Below are positions 35,355 through 39,742 of a stretch of DNA of 64,000 nucleotides, piece by piece; position 1 is the stretch's first letter, and each line of letters starts with the position of its first letter. The notes under the pieces are model-generated. The model saw only the letters and a list, made by a program, of their open reading frames with translations, had not been told where the DNA came from and did no database searches. The stretch covers positions 1 to 64,000 of the forward strand of contig NZ_JAAXLJ010000013.1 of the NCBI RefSeq assembly GCF_012641075.1, in the 5' to 3' direction. Made by a program: the position numbers and the translations under genes. This stretch comes from Secundilactobacillus angelensis. Lineage in GTDB: Bacteria; Bacillota; Bacilli; Lactobacillales; Lactobacillaceae.

Positions 35355-35398
35355 TCTAGTATAGTGATTCGTAGACTGTGGAAGGGACGTGCACCAGT

Positions 35399-36037
35399 TT
35401 GGAATTAAAAGTCTTAGAAGGCCAAAACAAAAACGAATTATCGATGATTGAAGTAGCTCACGCCATTTTATCTGAGCGCGGGGATGCCATGCCGTTTGTT
35501 GACTTAGCCAATGAGGTACAGACATACCTGGGCGACTCGGATAAGGAAATTCGCGAGCGGCTTTCTCAATTCTATACTGATTTGAACATTGATGGCAGTT
35601 TCATTTCGTTAGGTGACAACGTCTGGGGTTTACGGACCTGGTATCCTTTCGAATCAATTGATGAAGCTACTGTTGGTGCCGAAGAGGATGAGGAACATCC
35701 AAAGAAGAAGCATAAGAAGGTTAATGCTTTCTTAGCTGATTCGGCCGATGACGATGACGTTATCGATTATGATGACGATGATCCTGAAGATCAAGACGAC
35801 GTTGATGTAGATGACGATGATCTTGACGCTGATTATGATGAAGATGATGACGACGAAACCGATGATAGCACTAAAGAACTTGGTAAGTACAAGAATGATT
35901 TAGCTGATATCGATGACGGTGATGACGATGATGATGACGACAACATGCCAGATGGTATTGAAGGTCAATTATCAGAGTTTAACGAAGATGATGATGATTT
36001 CGACGACGATGATGACGACGAAAAATCAGATAAGTAG
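35399..36037 (+). CDS. rpoE: DNA-directed RNA polymerase subunit delta
   Basis: This 212-residue protein is the Firmicutes delta subunit, which helps release nucleic acid from RNA polymerase and tunes promoter sensitivity to the first NTP. The ordered N-terminal HARE-HTH domain ([10 protein letters not shown]...[14 protein letters not shown]) covers about the first 80 residues. The remaining ~110 residues are disordered and dominated by Asp and Glu. TTG at 35399 matches lactobacillus homologues, with AAGGGA 11 bases upstream; GTG at 35378 is an alternative. Confidence 0.95.
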
Positions 36038-36264: not shown

Positions 36265-37893
<1,629 letters not shown>

Positions 37894-38099: not shown

Positions 38100-39380
38100 A
38101 TGAAAAAAATGATAATCCACGGTGGACAGCGCCTGTCAGGCAGCGTCAACATCGGTGGTGCTAAAAATAGCACGGTCGCACTCATACCAGCGGCAATCCT
38201 GGCAGATACACCAGTTAAATTTGATATGGTACCAGATATTTTAGATGTTCATAATCTGATGCTGATTTTGGAGTCCATGAACGTGCACTCCAGATTTGCT
38301 GATGGTGTATTAACCATTGATCCCACTGAAATCGTGGAGGCACCTATGCCCAGTAAAGCGATTAAAAGCTTACGGGCTTCTTATTACTTTATGGGTGCGC
38401 TACTTGGCCGATTTGGTCGTGCCACGCTAACTTTTCCTGGCGGTGATAACATTGGGCCACGACCGATCGACCAGCACATTAAGGCGTTTAAAGCGCTTGG
38501 TGCTGAGGTTGAAGATAATCATGGAACCGTCCGTATTACCACGGGGGATAAGGGATTACACGGTGCCAGAATTTTCTTGGACGTTGTTTCAGTTGGCGCC
38601 ACGATCAATACAATTTTGGCAGCGGTGAAGGCTGACGGTCTGACCACCATTGAAAATGCGGCCAAGGAACCTGAGATTATTGATATCGCAACCTTCTTAA
38701 ATAATATGGGTGCGCATGTTCGTGGCGCCGGAACGGATGTTATTCGAATCGAAGGGGTGCCCGTCTTGCGTGCCACCAATGTTCATACCATCATTCCCGA
38801 TCGGATTGAAGCCGGTACTTTTTTGGCAATGGCCGCTGCAATGGGAGATGGTGTGGCGATTCATAACATTATTCCTGAGCATTTGGAGTCCTTTACAGCT
38901 AAACTGATTGAAATGGGTGTTGACCTACAGATTGGCGAAGATTCAGCATACGTTGGTGAATCTCGTAATTTAAAGGCCATTCAAGTTAAAACGATGCCGT
39001 TTCCAGGCTTTGCCACGGACTTGCAACAACCCATTACACCCTTGTTACTGAAGGCCTCAGGGAGCAGTATCATTGTGGATACCATTTATCCTCAACGGTT
39101 GAAGCACGTGCCTGAACTGAAAAAAATGGGCGCAAAGATACGACCGGAAAAAGACATGATCGTCGTTGATCACACTGAACATCTGGCTGGGGCAACCGTG
39201 GACGCGGGTGAAATTCGTGCTGGGGCTTCGTTAATGATTGCAGCATTGATGGCTGAAGGTACCACAACGATTACCAGCGCAGAAAACATTTTACGCGGCT
39301 ATGGCAGTATTGTTGATAAACTCACAGCGCTAAATGCTGACGTGAGAATTGAAAGCAGCGATCGCGTAGAGGAATTATAA
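38100..39380 (+). CDS. murA: UDP-N-acetylglucosamine 1-carboxyvinyltransferase, with Asp in place of the active-site Cys
   Basis: This 426-residue enzyme adds enolpyruvate to UDP-GlcNAc, the first committed step of peptidoglycan synthesis. [10 protein letters not shown] near residue 22 holds the catalytic Lys, and the RP motif follows the active loop. That loop reads [12 protein letters not shown], so residue 116 is Asp (codon GAT at 38445-38447) where E. coli MurA has Cys115, the residue alkylated by fosfomycin. The Asp version is known to be active and fosfomycin-insensitive in other bacteria. Its location after pyrG matches the second MurA paralogue (MurAB/MurZ) of Bacillus; another copy may exist elsewhere. 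Confidence 0.95.
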
Positions 39381-39484: not shown

Positions 39485-39742
39485 ATGAAAAAAGGAATTC
39501 ATCCAGATTACCACCAAGTGGTATTCCAAGACTCAAGTACCGGTTACAAATTTTTGTCAGGTTCAACTGCAACTTCTGCAGAAACAATCGACTGGGAAGA
39601 TGGCAACACTTATCCATTGATTCGTGTTGAAATTTCTTCTGACTCACATCCTTTCTACACTGGTAAGCAAAAGTTTGCCCAAGCAGATGGTGCTGTGGAT
39701 CGTTTCAACAAGAAGTACGGTTTAAAAAACGACCAAAATTAA
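39485..39742 (+). CDS. rpmE2: Ribosomal protein L31, type B
   Basis: This 85-residue protein of the large ribosomal subunit starts [16 protein letters not shown] and ends near FNKKYGLK. It lacks the CXXC zinc pair, so it is the zinc-free (type B) form, able to replace zinc-binding L31 when zinc is short. No zinc-type L31 is seen in this window. It has its own promoter and terminator. In Bacillus the rpmE gene also follows murA and rho here; rho is missing. Confidence 0.95.

Follow-up and report, generated by a model that had tools for sequence, protein, structure and literature searches.

Several MurA enzymes that carry Asp at the position of the fosfomycin-target Cys have been described. One report indicates that the C115D variant of Escherichia coli MurA is active and insensitive to fosfomycin, and that the native Asp enzymes of Mycobacterium tuberculosis and Borrelia burgdorferi turn sensitive when Asp is replaced by Cys (PMC4790336). 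The C119D MurA of Enterococcus faecium was reported to keep its kcat and to escape inhibition by fosfomycin below 100 umol/L, with an approximately twofold lower kcat/Km for UDP-GlcNAc (PMC5652432). Lactobacilli appear to carry the Asp115 genotype according to a 2022 paper that reports Asp115 in a set of 47 including Leuconostoc gelidum, and that describes intrinsic fosfomycin resistance in Leuconostoc (PMC9733070). Intrinsic resistance has also been described in Weissella, where fosB and transporter genes, not MurA, were implicated (PMC4621295).

We analysed a 64,000-nucleotide stretch of Secundilactobacillus angelensis DNA (NZ_JAAXLJ010000013.1, positions 1 to 64,000), hereafter the window, which contains a murA gene of this type (Table 1). 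Taken together, our observations make it very probable that this gene is the murA2 of the Lactobacillaceae, that it encodes an active Asp enzyme refractory to fosfomycin, and that its Asp goes back to a single ancestral change. MurA2 would produce enolpyruvyl-UDP-GlcNAc, the first committed precursor of peptidoglycan, and Asp116 would take over the acid-base role of Cys115.

Table 1. Features of the murA2 locus in the window.
Feature	Position	Strand	Basis
rpoE, RNA polymerase delta subunit	35378..36037	+	presumed name, from sequence and site
pyrG, CTP synthase, upstream neighbour	36268..37893	+	presumed name, from sequence
murA2 (MurAB/MurZ type), UDP-GlcNAc enolpyruvyl transferase, 426 aa	38100..39380	+	TIGR01072, 462 bits
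GAT, Asp116, at the position of E. coli Cys115 (fosfomycin target)	38445..38447	+	codon and alignment to E. coli MurA
GAA ATT, Glu371-Ile372, at E. coli Asp369-Leu370; signature of the Lactobacillaceae MurA2 clade with Asp115	39210..39215	+	
rpmE2, ribosomal protein L31 type B, downstream neighbour	39485..39742	+	presumed name, from sequence

A previous sequence-only reading had recognised a MurA with Asp in place of the fosfomycin-target Cys, and the alignment bears this out: codon 116 falls on Cys115 of E. coli K-12 MurA (sequence from NC_000913), and K22, N23, R91, R120, E188, D305, R331, R371 and R397 are all retained. Apart from E188, these residues form the MurA catalytic set, part of which is named in PMC4790336. 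The best match with a species name is S. yichangensis (96% identity over 426 aa), and the same Asp is found in 80 of 80 relatives from named records; Asp116 is therefore neither a read error nor a chance occurrence. The Pfam family of the protein, EPSP_synthase, is common to MurA and AroA and would also accommodate an AroA-like or other enolpyruvyl transferase. This identity is nevertheless extremely improbable, as the protein scores above the curated TIGR01072 cut-off of 392.7 bits, its nearest solved chain (3zh3) is a MurA, and the AroA-like gene of the same genome is a separate one that reaches only 80 bits against TIGR01072 and lies in what looks like a shikimate gene cluster.

The copy had further been assigned to the MurAB/MurZ site after pyrG, and the gene order rpoE-pyrG-murA2-rpmE2 agrees with that site, the neighbours being named from their sequences and, for rpoE, from its site as well. 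In Bacillus subtilis the order is rpoE-pyrG-murA2-rpmE. Within flanks of up to 3 kb, an L31 gene follows murA2 in all 80 named loci and pyrG precedes it in 55 of them.

The window gene had been proposed to be either the sole or a second MurA. A TIGR01072 profile search of its own genome (2.6 Mb, 139 contigs, 99.98% complete) showed that it is the second, since one other MurA scored above the cut-off (C107:86057-87304). This other copy, a MurA1, has Cys at residue 115 (loop PGGCAIGSRP), and both copies are intact. It lies between the atp genes, which are upstream of it, and a presumed mbl, the other gene names following the Limosilactobacillus oris record. A L. oris record labelled as a plasmid (CP014788.1) carries the same ATP synthase-murA1-mbl arrangement and may be chromosomal DNA.

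To establish how far the Asp extends, we searched 41 representative Lactobacillaceae genomes from 40 genera (two from Secundilactobacillus) with TIGR01072 and read the genes above the cut-off. MurA2 was present in 40 of the 41, with Asp in every case (a split gene in genome G018 being counted), and MurA1 was present in 19, always with Cys. Eighteen representatives thus have both copies, 22 have the Asp MurA2 only, and a single one, G028 (91% complete, 110 contigs), has the Cys MurA1 only. When the 80 named-record loci were added and G018 was excluded, Asp was found in 119 of 119 family MurA2, a number that includes near relatives and does not represent 119 independent cases. Conversely, Cys was found in 26 of 26 MurA1 and 25 of 25 MurA2 from sister families, a statement that rests on 51 genes read directly in 26 genomes of eight families. 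A search of the order with an Asp-loop pattern matched all 19 Lactobacillaceae and none of the 129 genomes from eight other families; the corresponding Cys-loop pattern, used as a positive control, matched 135 of the 148 genomes. Coverage of the whole family by the Asp-loop pattern was incomplete (at least 223 of 251 genomes) because the pattern demands Ile two positions past Asp and misses Leu loops such as the PGGDNLG of some Lactobacillaceae. Judging from these sequences, an Asp MurA2 is an ordinary trait of the Lactobacillaceae and not a peculiarity of the window; among the lactobacillus enzymes read, the Asp is clade-wide.

A few other matches deserve mention. A Cys-loop match in genome G011 (contig C12) was considered as a second MurA and discarded, as the locus has no MurA homology. 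In the beer isolate Loigolactobacillus backii TMW 1.1988, a mobilizable plasmid of 27 kb contains a partial MurA2 match (locus L314, 5001-5909; query residues 10-312, 79% identity) and an IS5 transposase gene. Five Asp-pattern matches were obtained in the class outside Lactobacillaceae, and only one, L224 in genome G518 of another Bacilli family, is MurA-like: a distant protein (36% identical) that has the Asp115-Glu369-Ile370 set. Beyond the class, several genera of the same phylum also have Asp-type MurAs. Here 29 Asp-loop loci (L281-L309) were fetched and read, 12 further matched places being left out; 18 of these loci (within L283-L309) hold a MurA and 11 do not.

The origin of the Asp was examined in a tree of 93 MurAs from which columns 115, 369 and 370 had been removed, built by a quick method with SH-aLRT support and without bootstrap. 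The 31 Lactobacillaceae MurA2 formed one clade (SH-aLRT 100) nested in a MurA2 group that also holds 21 Cys MurA2 from sister families (SH-aLRT 100), and this group, which includes the window gene, was separate from MurA1 (SH-aLRT 100). Because the tree contained no Cys MurAs of other classes, its three changes at site 115 are a minimum. Within the family, Cys was probably replaced by Asp a single time, in the common ancestor before diversification, and the clade would also have fixed Asp369Glu and Leu370Ile. The Cys-to-Asp replacement is not a one-step mutation, as going from TGY to GAY takes two base changes.

Sites 369 and 370, which adjoin Arg371, hold Glu and Ile in at least 118 of the 119 family MurA2, the intact rows showing no alternative combination, versus Asp and Leu in every one of the 70 Cys MurAs from three comparison groups. 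Among the groups compared, the Glu369/Ile370 pair is fixed in the Lactobacillaceae MurA2 clade only. The 276 aligned rows, with E. coli among them and some genes represented by more than one row, comprised 162 Asp-Glu-Ile (with the distant L224 among them), 111 Cys-Asp-Leu, and three rows of the split G018 gene that are gapped at 115 and have Glu-Ile. A strict coupling of Asp115 with Glu369/Ile370 held in all of these rows and was broken by the Asp MurAs from outside the class, 18 of 18 of which keep Asp369 and have Leu (12), Ile (5) or Val (1) at site 370. Glu369/Ile370 is therefore a signature of the clade and not a requirement, and it may represent a fine-tuning of the Asp enzyme.

In the 22 representatives without a Cys MurA above the TIGR01072 cut-off, the Asp enzyme is the only recognisable active MurA. 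Most of these genomes are drafts; seven consist of a single contig (G008, G009, G018, G027, G034, G037 and G039). A further weak MurA match was found in 14 of the 22; 13 of these score as AroA, and the remaining one is the decayed MurA1 of G005. These 13 matches, and a similar one in the Limosilactobacillus genome G1045, gave 287-427 bits to aroA versus 57-104 bits to murA (14 of 14), one of them (L394) falling 0.25 bit below the aroA cut-off. With no Cys MurA above the cut-off and these 13 weak matches scoring as AroA, wall synthesis in the Asp-only genomes must depend on the Asp enzyme. In the single contig of G018, the only MurA found is broken across two frames (L170, L279), which is either a sequencing error or real, and in the latter case a problem for this argument in that genome.

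The fate of MurA1 was followed in 50 genomes of a genus taken as Limosilactobacillus from the 98.9% match of one of its proteins (L344) to L. oris MurA1. MurA1 has the full catalytic set in 31 of them, one of which (66% complete) lacks a MurA2 match, and gave no match in three, G1040 (94% complete), G1044 (78%) and G1045 (100%), the remaining weak match of the last being AroA. In the other 16 genomes, MurA1 has lost catalytic residues (L171/L311 in G005, and L346-L360), and an Asp MurA2 is present in all 16. Lys22, Asn23 and the PGGC loop are all gone in 14 of these proteins; L346 has kept Lys22 and lost Asn23 and the loop, bringing the number without the loop to 15, and in L360 (G1036), where decay is at an early stage, the changes are R91H and C115G. 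All 16 genes are open over 408-504 aa from stop to stop, and all four that were checked with wide flanks (L311, L379, L380 and L381) still lie between atpC and mbl. When substitutions were introduced at random, the frame stayed free of stops in none of 2000 runs at 0.618 changes per site, in none of 2000 at 0.5, and in 34 of 2000 at 0.127. Among 13 pairs compared, the four in which silent change is not saturated, three of which fall in one lineage, gave dN/dS values of 0.057-0.162, with 0.013-0.031 for MurA2 of the same genomes and 0.077 for the sole unsaturated pair of full MurA1. Furthermore, conservation in 13 or more of the 15 dead MurA1 (L360 omitted) is seen at 69 positions, of which 34 fall between E. 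coli residues 194 and 291, and the Pfam family is still recognised in both dead MurA1 tested.

The most fitting reading of the decayed MurA1 is that it has been retained for a role other than catalysis. A literature search of openly available papers found no description of it; that it regulates MurA2 or rod-shape synthesis is our guess, and makes it a candidate regulator of wall synthesis. A wider scenario, which in our judgment falls just short of probable, is that a drug-proof and self-sufficient Asp-MurA2 (Asp115-Glu369-Ile370) at the root of the Lactobacillaceae freed the drug-sensitive MurA1 to change. Under this scenario MurA1 has disappeared in many genera, judging from their representatives, and some Limosilactobacillus have a dead yet selected form that may exert such regulation from the atp-mbl site.

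With regard to the window gene, its retained residues and the relatives that show no active Cys MurA argue for an active MurA2, and the Asp MurAs tested elsewhere suggest that it is insensitive to fosfomycin. A carboxylate is not alkylated by fosfomycin as a thiol is, hence the Asp enzyme should be refractory, and a contribution to the resistance of the cell is plausible. A search of the S. angelensis genome for GlpT (E<=0.001) gave no match, with 9 of 14 controls positive, so poor uptake may be another cause of any resistance; FosB gave no match either (10 of 14 controls matched), indicating that a FosB enzyme is not the cause. These absences, along with the age of the Asp and its fixation together with Glu369/Ile370, would suit an explanation in which the Asp-MurA2 is active and of minor importance for resistance, lactobacilli being resistant mainly through a lack of fosfomycin entry (no GlpT-type carrier) and the Asp having been fixed for a catalytic or regulatory reason. 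We regard this as a serious possibility but incline against it, because Asp at site 115 is a known insensitive form and the search among carriers and Fos enzymes covered the GlpT-type carrier and FosB only.

MurA paralogues of other Firmicutes share the work unequally, and both copies are intact in S. angelensis, which could mean that the Cys MurA1 is the main enzyme of the genus, that the Asp MurA2 is a minor or specialised paralogue, and that the cell is still sensitive to fosfomycin. Such an arrangement is unlikely given that no Cys MurA was seen in 22 of 41 relatives and that the copy lost or decayed is MurA1, not MurA2. An active MurA2 refractory to fosfomycin remains our preferred reading.

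That lactobacilli appear to carry the Asp MurA has already been reported, and our main finding is not new in this respect. The Asp characterises the family and is not a resistance mutation of individual strains, a distinction that matters in the screening of food strains for resistance genes. Lactobacilli also provide a natural setting in which to ask if the Cys enzyme can be permanently replaced by an Asp-MurA. As far as we have seen, the census of MurA paralogues, the fixation of Asp115-Glu369-Ile370 and the fate of MurA1 in Limosilactobacillus are new. The closest described case is that of Leuconostoc gelidum and other Lactobacillaceae, whose Asp115 MurA shows the same substitution in the same family; the accessible part of that account includes neither the Cys MurA1 paralogue, nor the Glu369/Ile370 partners, nor the loss of MurA1 (PMC9733070). 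MurA2 of the sister families belongs to the same orthologue group in the tree but has Cys115, Asp369 and Leu370 in 25 of 25 cases; likewise, the 3zh3 chain shares the GPRPID loop ending with the window MurA2 but has Cys and Asp-Leu. The MurAs of M. tuberculosis, Chlamydia and Borrelia have a native Asp at the fosfomycin site as here, in other phyla (PMC4790336). Finally, Cys119Asp of vancomycin-resistant E. faecium is the same change in an active enzyme uninhibited below 100 umol/L fosfomycin, a recent mutation reported in 4 of 890 clinical isolates (PMC5652432), whereas the Asp of the Lactobacillaceae is old and fixed.
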